From a virus, in IMG/VR virus record IMGVR_UViG_3300036944_000899, positions 1-29,095 of that record: a DNA stretch of 29,095 nucleotides. One strand, given 5' to 3'. Positions 4,140-23,617 of the stretch are shown in pieces (the first letter of the stretch is position 1; each line of letters begins with the position of its first letter). The position numbers were made by a program, and so were the translations under genes. The notes below the pieces were generated by a model. That model was not told where the DNA came from and made no database searches. It was given only the letters and a program-made list of their open reading frames with translations.

Positions 4140-4384
4140 ATTTTCAACTTCCACTTAAAGATAAGACCACCAGACTTCATTCCGATTGGAAAGTCGTCGA
4201 TGAATTTTAGGATGACGCTGGTTTCTAGATTATCATCAGAAGAGTAGTTGTTCAGTCGGAAATTATACTCGAGCGATTGTACCTCTTCCAAGTCTCTTTC
4301 AGGAATCAGCGGACCAATGATCTCACTTCTGAAACTAAAGAAAGAATCTGTTATTTCAGATTGCGATAGAACTAAGTCGTCCAT
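4136..4384 (-). CDS. Hypothetical protein (82 aa)
   Basis: I choose ATG 4384 over the TTG at 4408 because a strong AAGGAAG ribosome binding site lies 7 nt upstream. The start lies within the last 10 codons of the HAD gene. The product has an acidic helical N terminus and a beta-rich C terminus (GGLIFKWKLKI). No family is recognised. Confidence 0.6.
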   Translation of the reverse strand: MDDLVLSQSEITDSFFSFRSEIIGPLIPERDLEEVQSLEYNFRLNNYSSDDNLETSVILKFIDDFPIGMKSGGLIFKWKLKI

Positions 4385-4838
4385 TGAGAACTTCCTTCGC
4401 GATTTCAATGTCGTCTGGTTGAACCCCTACTGACCACAGTGTTCTAACAAATGGTTGACCACTCAGCATATCAGAATCATCATCAAGGATGACATATTTC
4501 TCGATACCGGGAGTTGTGTCTAGGTACTCTTGAATTTCGTATCCGCGAGCCTTACCTTTTAGGTCGGGTGTCTTGTCAAAAACTTCCGCGAACAAACCCT
4601 TCTTTTTGAACATAGCCTCGATTTGAAACACATCATGAAGCTTACGCCATGTGGATGTGATTACGATCTTTAGGTCTTCTTCTTCACAGAGTTTGTTCAC
4701 GAGAGCGCAAGCTGCCGGATCTAGCTCAGCTACTGAGCGCCAAAACATGCTTGATTCAGAATGGATTTGTTTTACGTTTTTCTCGTACCACTCATGAGAG
4801 TTAAGTACACCGTCAATGTCAAGGAATAGGATGTTCAT
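4356..4838 (-). CDS. HAD-superfamily phosphatase (SAK RNA-repair-type HAD domain)
   Basis: HAD motif I is at the N terminus (LFLDIDGVLNS, nucleophile Asp and general acid Asp), motif II is VITSTWR (Thr/Ser), and the acidic motif IV is YVILDDDSD. At 160 residues with little cap it resembles the compact HAD domain described for Swiss Army Knife RNA repair proteins, which suggests a nucleic-acid or nucleotide phosphatase. T4 has the analogous Pnkp phosphatase for RNA repair; no kinase or ligase domain is present here. The substrate is not determined by sequence. It lies 3 nt after the 4842-5054 gene in the same orientation. Confidence 0.78.
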   Translation of the reverse strand: MNILFLDIDGVLNSHEWYEKNVKQIHSESSMFWRSVAELDPAACALVNKLCEEEDLKIVITSTWRKLHDVFQIEAMFKKKGLFAEVFDKTPDLKGKARGYEIQEYLDTTPGIEKYVILDDDSDMLSGQPFVRTLWSVGVQPDDIEIAKEVLNGRLSSIAI

Positions 4839-5073: not shown

Positions 5074-5237
5074 TGGTCGCGGGGTTTCACACCGTCTCCT
5101 AGGCTACTAGGGCTTTAAGTCTAGTTCCACCGGCTGGCAGGAGCATTCCGGACTCTCCCGTCGTCAATACTGGAACTACCGAACCCATCTTATCCCTGTA
5201 CACAGGATCTCACAAGGTTATTACTAAGCTACCGCGA
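5074..5237 (-). ncRNA. Candidate structured RNA next to the tRNA genes
   Basis: No ORF explains this roughly 160-nt stretch. TCGCGG (5077-5082) pairs with CCGCGA (5232-5237) as an outer stem. Inside are a CCTAG/CTAGG hairpin (5098-5111), a long arm closed by TAGTTCCA/TGGAACTA (5122-5129 with 5171-5178) with an inner GGAG/CTCC stem, and a bulged ATCC-TG/CAGGAT hairpin (5192-5208). On the minus strand the RNA would end ...CGCGACCA, like the encoded CCA ends of the two tRNAs. There is no TTCRA T-loop and no readable anticodon arm, so it is not an ordinary tRNA. T4 encodes two stable RNAs of unknown function in its tRNA cluster, a possible parallel. Strand and function are inferred. Confidence 0.45.
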
Positions 5238-5240
5238 TTA

Positions 5241-5315
5241 TGGTCCCAACTCTGAGAATCGAACTCAGGTATCTGACGCCACAAGCCAGCGCTACTACCA
5301 CTGAGCTAAGTTGGG
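5241..5315 (-). tRNA. tRNA-His (GTG), CCA encoded
   Basis: Read on the minus strand: acceptor CCCAACT/AGTTGGG (7 perfect pairs), T8-A9, D-stem GCTC with an AGTGGTAG loop, anticodon stem CTGGC/GTCAG around the loop TTGTGGC (anticodon GTG), and T-arm CTGAG-TTCGATT-CTCAG. Discriminator A73 is followed by genomic CCA. The base at -1 is C, not the G that bacterial tRNA-His normally carries opposite C73. Loss of G-1 is a known feature of an alphaproteobacterial clade, so this tRNA points to the host. It lies 4 nt after the stop of the 5320-5871 gene and is probably processed from the same transcript. Confidence 0.92.
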
Positions 5316-5896: not shown

Positions 5897-5903
5897 TATT
5901 TAG
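5897..5903 (-). promoter_or_regulatory. Late promoter motif (CTAAATA)
   Basis: CTAAATA on the minus strand lies 26 nt upstream of the ATG of the 183-aa candidate head protein, between it and tRNA-Thr. The same CTAAATA variant occurs before the genes at 12145 and 21361. Confidence 0.5.
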
Positions 5904-5917
5904 TCAATTACAGAAAT

Positions 5918-5993
5918 TGGTGCCCGTTGTCCGAATCGAACGAACGACATCCAGTTTACAAAACTGGCGCTCTACCAACTGAGCTAAACGGGC
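5918..5993 (-). tRNA. tRNA-Thr (TGT), CCA encoded
   Basis: Read on the minus strand: acceptor GCCCGTT/AACGGGC (7 pairs), T8-A9, D-arm GCTC-AGTTGGTA-GAGC, anticodon stem CCAGT/ACTGG around TTTGTAA (anticodon TGT, reading ACA), and T-arm GTTCG-TTCGATT-CGGAC with one G-T pair. A73 is followed by encoded CCA. The first 7 nt of the tRNA overlap the final codons of the 5984-6196 gene. It would supplement decoding of ACA. Confidence 0.95.
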
Positions 5994-18721: not shown

Positions 18722-20236
18722 TTAAAGTGGAGTTGTATTTGCTACTGGTTCAGTAACTACTGGTTCGATTACAACATCAAAATCAGGAATTACTGGCGAG
18801 GCTGGTGTTTCAGGAACCGGATCAACGACTGGTGCGACCGGATCTACTGGCGCAGGTTCTGGTGTTGGTTCAACAACAGGAATGTCAACGACCGGAGTTT
18901 CTACAACAGGATCAGGAGTTACAACCACTGGGGCTGGCTCTTCAACTGGTGTAGGAACTGGTTCTTCGACGGGAACTGGAGTAGGTTCAACTACAGGCTC
19001 AGGAACTGGTTCTGGTGTTGGTTCAACAACAACTACTGGTTCTTCGACGGGAACTGGAGTAGGTTCAACTACTGGTTCTGGTGTTGGTTCAACAACAACT
19101 ACTGGTTCTTCGACGGGAACTGGAGTAGGTTCAACTACAGGCTCAGGAACTGGTTCTGGTGTTGGTTCAACAACAACTACTGGTTCTTCGACGGGAACTG
19201 GAGTAGGTTCAACTACTGGTTCTGGTGTTGGTTCAACAACAACTACTGGTTCTTCGACGGGAACTGGAGTAGGTTCAACTACTGGTTCTGGTGTTGGTTC
19301 AACGACTACCACAGGCTCAGGAACTGGCTCTGGTGTAGGTTCAACAATTACAACTGGATCTGGGGATGGTGTTGGTTCAGGAACTGGAGTTGGGGCTGGT
19401 GCAAGAGCATCAATAAGTTGTTGACTTAGTGTGTCAATTGTAGCTTGCATCACAGAAACTTGGAGTTGCAGTTCATTGACTTTTGTGTCATCAACAACTG
19501 TAACTGTTGGTCCAGGAATCTCAACAACACGTTCAGGACCAGGTACTTCAACCGTAACTTCTTTTACAACTTCAACTGTTGGACCTGGAACTTCTACGAT
19601 ACGTTCGGGTCCGGGAACTTCTACAGTGACTTCGCGAACGACTTCAACTGTTGGACCTGGAACTTCTACGATTCTTTCCGGACCTGGAACCTCAACAACA
19701 CGCTCAGGTCCTAAGACTTCTACGATTCTTTCTGGACCAGGTACTTCAACAACACGCTCTGGGCCAGGAACTTCTACAGTGACTTCACGAACGACTTCAA
19801 CTGTTGGTCCAGGAACCTCAACGTTAACTACACGCTCAGGTCCTGGTACCTCAACAATGCGCTCAGGGCCAAGAACCTCAACGATACGTTCAGGTCCTGG
19901 CACTGGCACTTCAACAAGTTTTTCGACTTCGCGAACGACTTCTACAGGGACATCAACACGTACTTCTTTGATAACTTCAACGATTACTGGTGGTTGAGCT
20001 TCAAGTCTACCTGTCATATATTTGATGACATTTTCAGACTCAAGAGCCTTTGCACCAAGAGCAGCAAGATCATCTTGAGCGTCTTTGATATCTTTAGTAA
20101 TACGCTCTTTATCTGCTTGATATGATGATTCGTTTTCCTTCAGTTTTTGCTGAAGGTTCTTAATACGCTTTTCAAGTCTTTCTCGTTCTCCGGCAATGCC
20201 ATCAACGATTCCCTGTACGTCTTCTAAAAGTCTCAT
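18722..20236 (-). CDS. Pro/Val-rich repeat structural-type protein (504 aa)
   Basis: Residues 1-85 form a coiled coil (LEKRIKNLQQKLKENE). Then come many VEVPGPERIVEV/VEVVREVTVEVPGP repeats, a second short coiled coil near residues 250-280 (VNELQLQVSVMQATIDTL), and a long PTPEPV/PVPVEEPVVVVE repeat region to the end. No catalytic motif is present. Such extended Pro/Val/Glu rods with coiled-coil ends suit fibres or flexible spacers on a virion; this is inference. The adjacent gene encodes a related protein. DNA repeats include 144-bp tandem units (18965-19318). Confidence 0.78.
   Translation of the reverse strand: MRLLEDVQGIVDGIAGERERLEKRIKNLQQKLKENESSYQADKERITKDIKDAQDDLAALGAKALESENVIKYMTGRLEAQPPVIVEVIKEVRVDVPVEVVREVEKLVEVPVPGPERIVEVLGPERIVEVPGPERVVNVEVPGPTVEVVREVTVEVPGPERVVEVPGPERIVEVLGPERVVEVPGPERIVEVPGPTVEVVREVTVEVPGPERIVEVPGPTVEVVKEVTVEVPGPERVVEIPGPTVTVVDDTKVNELQLQVSVMQATIDTLSQQLIDALAPAPTPVPEPTPSPDPVVIVEPTPEPVPEPVVVVEPTPEPVVEPTPVPVEEPVVVVEPTPEPVVEPTPVPVEEPVVVVEPTPEPVPEPVVEPTPVPVEEPVVVVEPTPEPVVEPTPVPVEEPVVVVEPTPEPVPEPVVEPTPVPVEEPVPTPVEEPAPVVVTPDPVVETPVVDIPVVEPTPEPAPVDPVAPVVDPVPETPASPVIPDFDVVIEPVVTEPVANTTPL
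18965..19318 (-). repeat. Tandem 78/66-bp coding repeats (144-bp period)
   Basis: The sequence TTCGACGGGAACTGGAG recurs at 18965, 19043, 19109, 19187 and 19253, giving alternating spacings of 78, 66, 78 and 66 bp. Each unit encodes 26 or 22 residues of the PTPEPV-PVPVEEP type. The near-identical DNA indicates recent duplication of a 144-bp block; all lengths are multiples of three, so the frame is kept. Confidence 0.85.
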
Positions 20237-20248
20237 CTCTACTTCCTC

Positions 20249-21361
20249 TTATTGTTTGTCGGCTGGAAGCTCAAGAATAAGCTCAGATTCTGCCGATGGC
20301 ACCAATACTTCATCAGTATTTAGTGGTGCTTCTTCAACGATTGATTCGAAGATAGGAGCATCTTGTAATGCAGGAGCGTCAACAAGAACTTCTTCAACAG
20401 GTGTGTCGAAGATTGGTTCTGGGAACGGGATCACTGGATCAACAATTGGCTCTGTTACTTCAGGAGCTTCGATAACCACTGTGTCATCTTCGACCATAGG
20501 TTGTTCGTCGATGATGTCTGGACTAACTGGGGCTGGTAGGTTAACCTCAGGTGTTGGTTCAACAACGACTACTGTTTCTTCAACAACAGGTGTTTCGATT
20601 ACAACTGGTTCTTCGATGATAACAACTTCATCAACAACAGGTGTTGGGACTGGCTCAACTACCACAACTTCGTCAACGACTGGTGGTGGAAGTAGAACTA
20701 GTTCTGGTGTTGGTTCATCTACAACTACTGTTTCTTCGACAGGAACTGGTGCAGGTTCTACTACAACAACTTCATCGACAACTGGTTCTGGTGTTGGTTC
20801 AACAACCACAACTTCAACCACTGGTTCTTCAACAGGAACTGGAGCGGCTTCTTCAACAGGTAGGCTAGGTTCAACTACAACAACTTCATCGACAACTGGT
20901 TCTGGTGTAGGCTCAACAACCACAACTGCAGGAGTTTCAACAACTACTGGTTCTGGTGTAGGTTCAACCACTACAACTGTTTCTTCGACTGGTGGTGCAG
21001 CTTCTTCAACAACAACAACCACAGGTGGCATGAGGAATGCGATCGCAGCAGAAGCTTGCGATGCTTTTCCAACTAGACGTGTCTTTTTAGCATTAAGAAC
21101 AGCTAACTCGCCATCAAACTCAGCTTTGATATCTGCAAACTGAGCTTCGGTTTGTGCAATCTCTGCACTAAATTGTTCAACATCAACATTAGTTTCTGCA
21201 AGAATTTCCTGCAGCTGTTCAACTAGTGTCTTAGATAATTGTTTTGGTTCAGCCACAGCCGATGCTGCAACTGGTGCGGAAAGGTGTTCAGATTCGCGCT
21301 CATCACGCTCATCGTCATTCTTCCATCCGCCACGACGGCCGAAATCCTTTTCGTTGCCCAC
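20249..21361 (-). CDS. Pro/Val-rich repeat protein with coiled coil (370 aa), GTG start
   Basis: The start is GTG 21361 with GGAG 8 nt upstream. The N-terminal 40 residues are charged (GRRGGWKNDDERDERESEH). A coiled coil follows (QLSKTLVEQLQEIL to about residue 105), then repeats of VVVVEPTPEPVV and PAPVPVEE, and an acidic, less repetitive C terminus (EVTEPIVDPVIPFPEP). It is related in composition and repeats to the 504-aa protein encoded next, so they probably form one structure. A CTAAATA late motif lies upstream at 21411. Confidence 0.75.
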   Translation of the reverse strand: MGNEKDFGRRGGWKNDDERDERESEHLSAPVAASAVAEPKQLSKTLVEQLQEILAETNVDVEQFSAEIAQTEAQFADIKAEFDGELAVLNAKKTRLVGKASQASAAIAFLMPPVVVVVEEAAPPVEETVVVVEPTPEPVVVETPAVVVVEPTPEPVVDEVVVVEPSLPVEEAAPVPVEEPVVEVVVVEPTPEPVVDEVVVVEPAPVPVEETVVVDEPTPELVLLPPPVVDEVVVVEPVPTPVVDEVVIIEEPVVIETPVVEETVVVVEPTPEVNLPAPVSPDIIDEQPMVEDDTVVIEAPEVTEPIVDPVIPFPEPIFDTPVEEVLVDAPALQDAPIFESIVEEAPLNTDEVLVPSAESELILELPADKQ

Positions 21362-21751: not shown

Positions 21752-23617
21752 CTAGATAGAAGTTACTTCGCATCCGCCAGCTGAGCAAGCAAGCTCCTGG
21801 CTTCCTGTAGTTTGATCTTCTTTTTCGAAGTCGCGCAGTTTATCCCAGTCGATTGATTTAGGCGAATTCTCAACCCACTTTTCATAGGTTTCCTTATCAA
21901 TATCCTGATATGGTGCTTGCTGATAGGTGTGGTCGTCACGTGGCAGGAAAGCTACTCCGGTGATCTCATCAAAGTGCTTATAAACGAATGCTGCCATGTC
22001 TACCCATTCGTCTTCACCAACGTTAATGGTTACAGAAGGTTTATGTTCACACCACTCGCGCTGAACTGTTAGCCAAGTTTCAAGATGTTCTAGAGCGGTA
22101 ATGTCATGACGTGTGACAGCACCCTTTGGTGACTTCTGGGGGAAGCTGAACACAGTAGTTTTGTTTGGCATCATCACATCTGGCTCGTTTGGAACACCTT
22201 GAGCCTTAAGGAATGTCGTCATTGCATCGAAGTTATCACCGCGAATAGTACGGAGATAGTATTCCGAGTGACGTGGGTGAATACCGGATGCTGAATCAAC
22301 AAGCTGTGATACGGTTCCAGATGGTTTCACACAGGTGATAGCAACTGACTGATTGATGCCGAGTTTCTTGGCCCACTCAGCGTTTACTTTGACAGAGAGC
22401 TCTCTAAGTTCATTCATCCACCCAATAGCTTTTGGGTTGTCGAAGATACCTGTCATAGAAACGCCGAGAAGTCTTTCCTCTTCGCAGTTGTCTTTCCAGA
22501 TCTTACGGAGATATTTGAAGTCGGTGAAGGTTGACTGGATCGTTCCGAGGATCACAGCCAGTTCTACCTTCTGCTTCAGTGTTTCGAGAGTATCTTCAGC
22601 ACGAACTACAACTTCTGTGAGGTTGCAGAATTGATACGGCCGAAGGATGATCTCTGAACACGGATTAGTGCCAAAATGAACTCCATCGATTTCTCTACGT
22701 CCGCATCGAAGGGCTTGGTTGTTTGATGCTTGACGGTTGAAGATCCCACGTTCGCCAGACTTAGACTCATATAGCGACTTCCATTCGTCAAGGAATTGGC
22801 CAACCGTTGGTTTCTCATTATACACCGCTGAGTTATTAGCAAGAGCACGGTGGGGATGGGTTGTCCACCACTGACCGTTCTTGCAGGTTGCCATCTCACG
22901 ATCATTGAGATCCGAGAGGGAGATAAGTGCTGAGCGGCGAACGCCACCAGCAACGATTACTTCTGCTGTTTTACAGCAAATATCATGAACTTCAAGCGGA
23001 CGAAGTCTACGACCACCGGCATTACGGAAGATGTCAATGCAATATTCAAAAAGACGCTTAAGTGGTTCCGGACCTGAAGCACGCCCACCGAATGTCTTTA
23101 GACGCTCACCTTCAGCACGCACCTTTGAATAATCAAGATTTGGGATTTGACCAGAATACAAAAGAGCCAGGAGCTCTTTGAAAGCTCTGGCCCAACCAGA
23201 CTTGGAATCACCGATGATGATGGTGGTATTGGTTTTCTCAAAGTGTTCAGCAATAATTGGCAGCTTGTCTGTGTACATGCGTTCAACAGAGAAGCCGACA
23301 CCTGTACCGCACATTAGGATGTACATTAGCTCATCGAATGAGCGAACATTATCAATTGGAAGATAAGAACAGTTGTAAGCGGCAACGTTGCAACGTTCCA
23401 TTGCTGGGCCAGCTGTCATTAGTGCACGCATTGAAGGCATAACTTCAAGGTTCACAATGGCGTTGAATATTTCGTCTTTAAGTTTAGTTGTAAGCTTATC
23501 TGGTAAAACAAAACTACAGTAACGTCTAACCGTCTCATCCCAAGTCTCGCGTCTATTCTCTTCCTCAAGCCATCGTGCGTATCTGGACACGGCAATGACG
23601 CGTTGGTAATCTTTCAT
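21752..23617 (-). CDS. nrdJ: Adenosylcobalamin-dependent ribonucleotide reductase, class II (NrdJ)
   Basis: This monomeric B12-dependent RNR resembles the Lactobacillus leichmannii type and makes deoxyribonucleotides. Its key residues match that enzyme: YNCSYL (first active-site Cys), NPCSEIILRPYQFCNL (thiyl Cys, Glu two residues on, second active-site Cys exactly 11 residues on), and C-terminal CSAGGC with a spacing of five (redox shuttle cysteines). At 621 aa it is shorter than the about 740-aa bacterial enzyme. It lets the phage make dNTPs without oxygen but requires host cobalamin, common in rhizobia. A late motif (23647-23653) lies upstream, and ThyA is nearby. Confidence 0.95.
   Translation of the reverse strand: MKDYQRVIAVSRYARWLEEENRRETWDETVRRYCSFVLPDKLTTKLKDEIFNAIVNLEVMPSMRALMTAGPAMERCNVAAYNCSYLPIDNVRSFDELMYILMCGTGVGFSVERMYTDKLPIIAEHFEKTNTTIIIGDSKSGWARAFKELLALLYSGQIPNLDYSKVRAEGERLKTFGGRASGPEPLKRLFEYCIDIFRNAGGRRLRPLEVHDICCKTAEVIVAGGVRRSALISLSDLNDREMATCKNGQWWTTHPHRALANNSAVYNEKPTVGQFLDEWKSLYESKSGERGIFNRQASNNQALRCGRREIDGVHFGTNPCSEIILRPYQFCNLTEVVVRAEDTLETLKQKVELAVILGTIQSTFTDFKYLRKIWKDNCEEERLLGVSMTGIFDNPKAIGWMNELRELSVKVNAEWAKKLGINQSVAITCVKPSGTVSQLVDSASGIHPRHSEYYLRTIRGDNFDAMTTFLKAQGVPNEPDVMMPNKTTVFSFPQKSPKGAVTRHDITALEHLETWLTVQREWCEHKPSVTINVGEDEWVDMAAFVYKHFDEITGVAFLPRDDHTYQQAPYQDIDKETYEKWVENSPKSIDWDKLRDFEKEDQTTGSQELACSAGGCEVTSI

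Follow-up and report, generated by a model that had tools for sequence, protein, structure and literature searches.

A candidate structured noncoding RNA among the tRNA genes of a T4-superfamily phage

The RNA element and its genomic setting

The window analysed here, a whole IMG/VR record of 29,095 bases, contains an element of about 161 nt next to its tRNA-His gene, which is best read as a phage structured noncoding RNA, co-transcribed with tRNA-His from the minus strand and similar in kind to RNA C and RNA D of phage T4; a rough probability of 0.55 is assigned to this reading. As its fold is preserved in relatives and it matches no known family, it probably represents a new family of structured phage RNA that, in the manner of RNA C and RNA D, would be processed from a tRNA transcript. 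The phage itself is a T4-superfamily myovirus, because its relatives, the contigs L004 (83.9 kb) and L005 (97.4 kb), are of T4-type myoviruses, and the major capsid protein of L005 shares 59-64% identity with its counterparts in Stenotrophomonas phage DLP6 and in Pelagibacter, Methylophilales and Sinorhizobium phiM12/phiN3 phages. The surroundings of the element are as follows.

5918-5993, minus strand: tRNA-Thr(TGT), the second tRNA of the window
5897..5903, minus strand: CTAAATA, a motif-scan hit similar to a T4-type late promoter by resemblance alone, located 5' of the ORF ahead of tRNA-His
5241..5315, minus strand: tRNA-His(GTG), the immediate upstream neighbour, called by ARAGORN/Rfam
5077..5237, minus strand: structured RNA element, from the P1 5' strand to the P1 3' strand, defined by homologues and covariation
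5074..5076, minus strand: encoded CCA, 3' of P1, present in the window and L004, absent in L005
4842..5069, minus strand: 75-aa ORF, the immediate downstream neighbour; L004 and L005 lack it at the corresponding position
4356..4838, minus strand: HAD_SAK_2 gene (PF18143, Pfam E 3.4e-27), the first gene past the element in L004 and L005

Conservation among relatives

On the minus strand, the element starts 3 nt past the CCA of tRNA-His. Searches with the neighbouring proteins yielded three contigs with a homologue at the equivalent place, so that the element, absence of which from close relatives would have spoken against it, is present in L003 and L004 (4818-4979) and in L005 (1983-2145). The copies of L003 and L004 are near copies of the window element (97.5% identity), and that of L005 is diverged (71%); in all, two independent lineages carrying the element are known. 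The window and L004 share 97.5% identity over the element but only 66% over the tRNA-His beside it, and a different gene follows in each; the element is therefore conserved in its own right, independently of both neighbours. This conservation begins at the 5' edge of the element and extends to an ATGAGGA segment common to both, beyond the element. Compared with L005, the element (71% identity) is preserved to a similar degree as the adjoining protein genes (67-70%) and far better than an intergenic stretch in the vicinity (52%).

Blocks of some 20 nt within the element are invariant, and sequences between the helices, such as UAGCUUAGUAAUA, UUCGGUAG, AGACUUAAAG and GAGACGG, do not show any change. 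The initial annotation described the region as free of genes, and this was borne out: a protein-coding element was rejected, as length differences among the copies disrupt every reading frame.

Consensus fold and covariation

The consensus of the three sequences is a multibranch fold with eight helices, organized as a closing stem, P1, and four arms; all positions listed below are on the minus strand.

5232..5237: helix 1 (P1), 5' strand TCGCGG, paired with 5077-5082; C-G to U-A double change in L005
5077..5082: helix 1 (P1), 3' strand CCGCGA, partner of 5232..5237
5182..5219: helix 2 (5215-5219 with 5182-5186), which encloses helix 3; changes C-G to U-A and U-G to C-G
within 5182..5219: helix 3 (5204-5208 with 5192-5196), 7-nt loop GUGUACA; invariant
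5118..5180: central arm made of helices 4, 5 and 6, from the covariation analysis
5178-5180 with 5118-5120: helix 4, part of the central arm
5171-5176 with 5124-5129: helix 5; A-U to G-C change
5155-5162 with 5136-5143: helix 6, apical and variable; two double changes and broken cells
5098..5111: helix 7, a hairpin (5106-5111 with 5098-5103); three double changes
5083..5093: helix 8, hairpin GGU-GUGAA-ACC, which abuts P1; invariant in 3/3 sequences

In the three-sequence alignment, double compensatory changes occur at 8 of the 42 pairs and 96% of the cells are paired, with the structure used for these counts coming partly from the same alignment; the counts are small because only two independent lineages are known. 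None of 500 shuffles reached eight double-change pairs or 96% of paired cells, and when the 3' partners were shifted by 1-3 columns, 34-58% of the cells stayed paired and 0-2 double-change pairs were left.

Several features proposed from the window sequence withstood this comparison: the outer stem TCGCGG/CCGCGA is present, with its C-G to U-A double change in L005, and the inner hairpins with their multibranch arrangement are conserved among the relatives; a lack of covariation in homologues would have counted against the proposal, and eight compensatory pairs were found. As for the long-range stem TAGTTCCA/TGGAACTA, described as having 8 bp, the stem is real but support extends to only 6 bp; its A64-T118 pair becomes A-G in both relatives, and A70-U112 becomes G-C.

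These data also bear on the view of the element as a functionless degenerate remnant of a broken tRNA, a piece of tmRNA or an intron, which the initial annotation had listed. Debris does collect in tRNA clusters, and related phages carry permuted tmRNA genes; the compensatory changes, the invariant junctions, the blocks of about 20 nt without change and a conservation at the level of coding sequence disfavour it, and the element is unlike the tmRNA of L003 and has no intron or tmRNA match in Rfam, so this origin is very improbable.

In every copy, the loop of helix 3 (window 5192-5208) carries the palindrome UGUACA (CUGUACAG in L005); by its sequence, this loop could in principle form loop-loop dimers or kissing interactions.

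Folding energy and strand

The thermodynamic stability of the element is ordinary for its composition: on the minus strand, the single-sequence folding energy of the window element has a z between +0.45 and +1.3 relative to shuffles, and therefore the structural case rests on the comparison of homologues. With RNAalifold, z was -4.1 for the three sequences and -5.7 for L004 and L005, against a null of column-shuffled alignments of which 0/500 were as low. Both strands outdo their own shuffles in this test, as expected; the energy of the two-sequence alignment is -43.9 for the minus strand and -29.3 for the plus strand. Moreover, some pairs are kept on the minus strand only, since they need G-U (U-G/C-G, G-U/G-C and G-C/U-G). 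When folded together with the downstream sequence, the window and L004 elements form P1 unreliably.

Overall, the claim that this stretch is a phage stable RNA is well supported by the comparison of homologues as far as a conserved structured RNA of the minus strand is concerned.

Transcription and relation to the downstream genes

On the minus strand, the interval from tRNA-His to the element showed no promoter or terminator-like site, and a terminator was not found past the element either. Because of the lack of a separating site, and with CTAAATA upstream, the element would be co-transcribed with tRNA-His.

The main rival to a stand-alone RNA is a 5' leader that acts in cis on the operon behind it, which consists of HAD_SAK_2, or of the 75-aa ORF followed by the HAD gene; the leader could act as a riboswitch, bind a protein, or shield the mRNA 5' end after tRNA-His processing. 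The end of the element lies about 17 nt ahead of the conserved ATGAGGA, at a similar distance in all three sequences, and in L004 and L005 the HAD gene begins at this segment; placement 5' of a gene with ATGAGGA suits a leader equally well. Ligand-binding leaders typically have invariant junctions in a multibranch fold, as the element does. On the other hand, a terminator after the element was not found, the SD/ATGAGGA falls outside the consensus fold, the three copies have no SD-masking structure in common, and the gene that follows in the window is a different one. A leader is thus a tentative alternative, clearly less probable than the noncoding RNA.

If the element is a noncoding RNA of the RNA C/D sort, the maturation of the tRNA-His 3' end would release its 5' end, P1 and the adjoining hairpin would protect both ends, and the molecule would accumulate as a stand-alone RNA of about 160 nt, like T4 RNA C and RNA D; with low certainty, its invariant junctions might serve in the infected cell as binding sites for a protein or for the translation machinery. 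A more specific proposal, which we regard as doubtful, is that it represents a small phage RNA of a new class, with no sequence relation to T4 RNA C and RNA D, which arose or was retained in the tRNA cluster and acts on the infected host in trans, perhaps in an RNA-protein or self-associating complex via the invariant junctions and the palindromic loop.

Comparison with known RNA families

Searches of Rfam, both at the gathering threshold and up to E<=10, gave no credible family match for the element, and the same holds for the riboswitch and leader families of Rfam 15 up to E 10; one match to the L31-Firmicutes leader (E 0.12) was discarded, being a single short hairpin under the threshold. 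Rfam introns and GOLLD/ROOL did not match either. A blastn search against 50,697 phages returned tRNA matches only, and a plasmid collection none.

The covariance model R1, built from the known copies, scores 184-203 bits on all of them. Applied to about 90 related phage records, among them Sinorhizobium phiM12/phiN3, Stenotrophomonas DLP6, Pelagibacter phages and Melnitz, it found nothing credible besides the three known copies: weak matches in L097 and L098 (E about 1) and one in L105 (17 bits, with the 3' half mostly absent) were rejected as chance. Pattern scans of viral and genome contigs gave, apart from the known copies, no candidate with a credible full-length R1 match, and several candidates lie in coding sequence (that of L210 encodes DGDGVKPS).

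T4 RNA C and RNA D are expressed and their roles are unknown (PMC3014915; PMC9697503). RNA C (rnaC, species 1) has 139 nt and RNA D (rnaD, species 2) has 119 nt; like the element, they are phage-encoded, of similar size, and placed within a T4-superfamily tRNA cluster, directly after a tRNA and on the same strand, with RNA D just past tRNA-Arg. The element accordingly shares the traits that define the kind: placement directly after a tRNA, the same strand, and a length of 100-200 nt. The RNAs differ in that no similarity emerges by sequence or covariance model: local alignments of the element with rnaC and rnaD scored at chance, and R1 found nothing above chance on the T4 tRNA cluster with filters off. 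RNA C has a canonical T arm, GGGTTCGAATCCC, and the element has none; furthermore, the T4 RNAs were detected by Northern, whereas the element is a predicted RNA. The parallel with the T4 cluster RNAs, already drawn in the initial annotation, thus fits in position, and homology at the sequence level is undetectable. With the element, a second, sequence-unrelated RNA with covariation occupies the niche of RNA C and RNA D, which suggests that RNAs of this kind recur in the tRNA clusters of the T4 superfamily, and the element offers a structure-based handle for comparing positions, conserved junctions and expression among phage lineages. With respect to T4 rnaC (L206:1909-2047), it carries an acceptor-like end in addition to the T arm (GGGTTCGAATCCC), and therefore its 3' end is itself tRNA-like.

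GOLLD and ROOL, whose function is unknown, are noncoding RNAs of phages and are frequently situated close to tRNA islands (PMC12286853); the element shares with them its probable nature and its vicinity to tRNAs, but many GOLLD RNAs exceed 800 nt, compared with about 161 nt for the element, which has no Rfam match.

Permuted (two-piece) tmRNA occurs in marine phages (PMC9004378), and related phages of the same group carry such genes; the element differs from them, having no tag reading frame and no tmRNA match (RF01849/RF04321), nor a tRNA-like domain combined with a tag ORF. Permuted tmRNA genes of the alphaproteobacterial type (RF01849/RF04321) are found at L003:9362-9724, L094:10166-10448 and L096:10602-11010, and the counterpart of the L003 gene would fall beyond the left end of the window. 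The idea that the element is a copy or piece of the L003 tmRNA was dismissed, as it has no similarity to that separate gene. A GCU-UAG-UAA-UAA run near the 5' end of the element looks like the end of a tmRNA tag; this interpretation was set aside, as the frame extends back into tRNA-His.

Likeness to tRNA

The minus-strand end CGCGACCA, noted earlier for its CCA, is found in the window and in its 97.5% identical relatives; the copy of L005 ends with GCAATTT, and because of this the encoded CCA is not conserved. The reported lack of a T-loop consensus and of an anticodon arm proved correct: neither the hairpin with the 7-nt loop GUGUACA nor GGU-GUGAA-ACC makes a canonical arm. Near the element, ARAGORN and Rfam called only tRNA-His and tRNA-Thr, and the element itself gave neither a match to the tRNA covariance model (RF00005) nor a cloverleaf; an intron-bearing tRNA was rejected as well, as ARAGORN calls none with introns allowed. 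Since the CCA is missing in the diverged copy and the fold is kept, the element is not a tRNA that requires its CCA end, nor is it evidently a remnant.

The earlier suggestion of a tRNA-like sponge accordingly finds no direct support, given the CCA that is not conserved and the missing canonical T-loop and anticodon arm. A related, possible but weak reading is a tRNA mimic that decoys a host factor (an anticodon nuclease, a synthetase or RNase P), beside an RNA-repair-type HAD phosphatase. The location in a tRNA cluster, the HAD_SAK_2 neighbour, the CCA encoded in the window and L004, a hairpin with a 5-bp stem and a 7-nt loop, and the resemblance of P1 and its abutting hairpin to an acceptor/T arm are compatible with it; the loss of CCA in L005, the mere 3 bp of hairpin 8, the C that follows the pseudo-anticodon, and the absence of any ARAGORN tRNA even with introns allowed make it unlikely.

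In another contig, L092:16632-16702 is a cloverleaf sequence resembling tRNA-Trp(CCA), located after tRNA-His, with the odd T-loop GGCGGTA; it is called by neither ARAGORN nor Rfam.

Other features of the window and its relatives

In the contig of L005 (L109:17969-18907; L109:19441 to L110:628), an ORF with a start like that of the large terminase has only 312 aa and is followed by an ORF of 395 aa, and the large terminase counterpart in L004 has 553 aa; this arrangement suggests an inserted element. In the window, two adjacent minus-strand ORFs of 504 and 370 aa (18722-21361) consist mostly of VEPTPEPV/VEVPGPERIV repeats, and 21752-23617 encodes a ribonucleotide reductase of 621 aa with a match to the B12-dependent insertion domain (PF21995).
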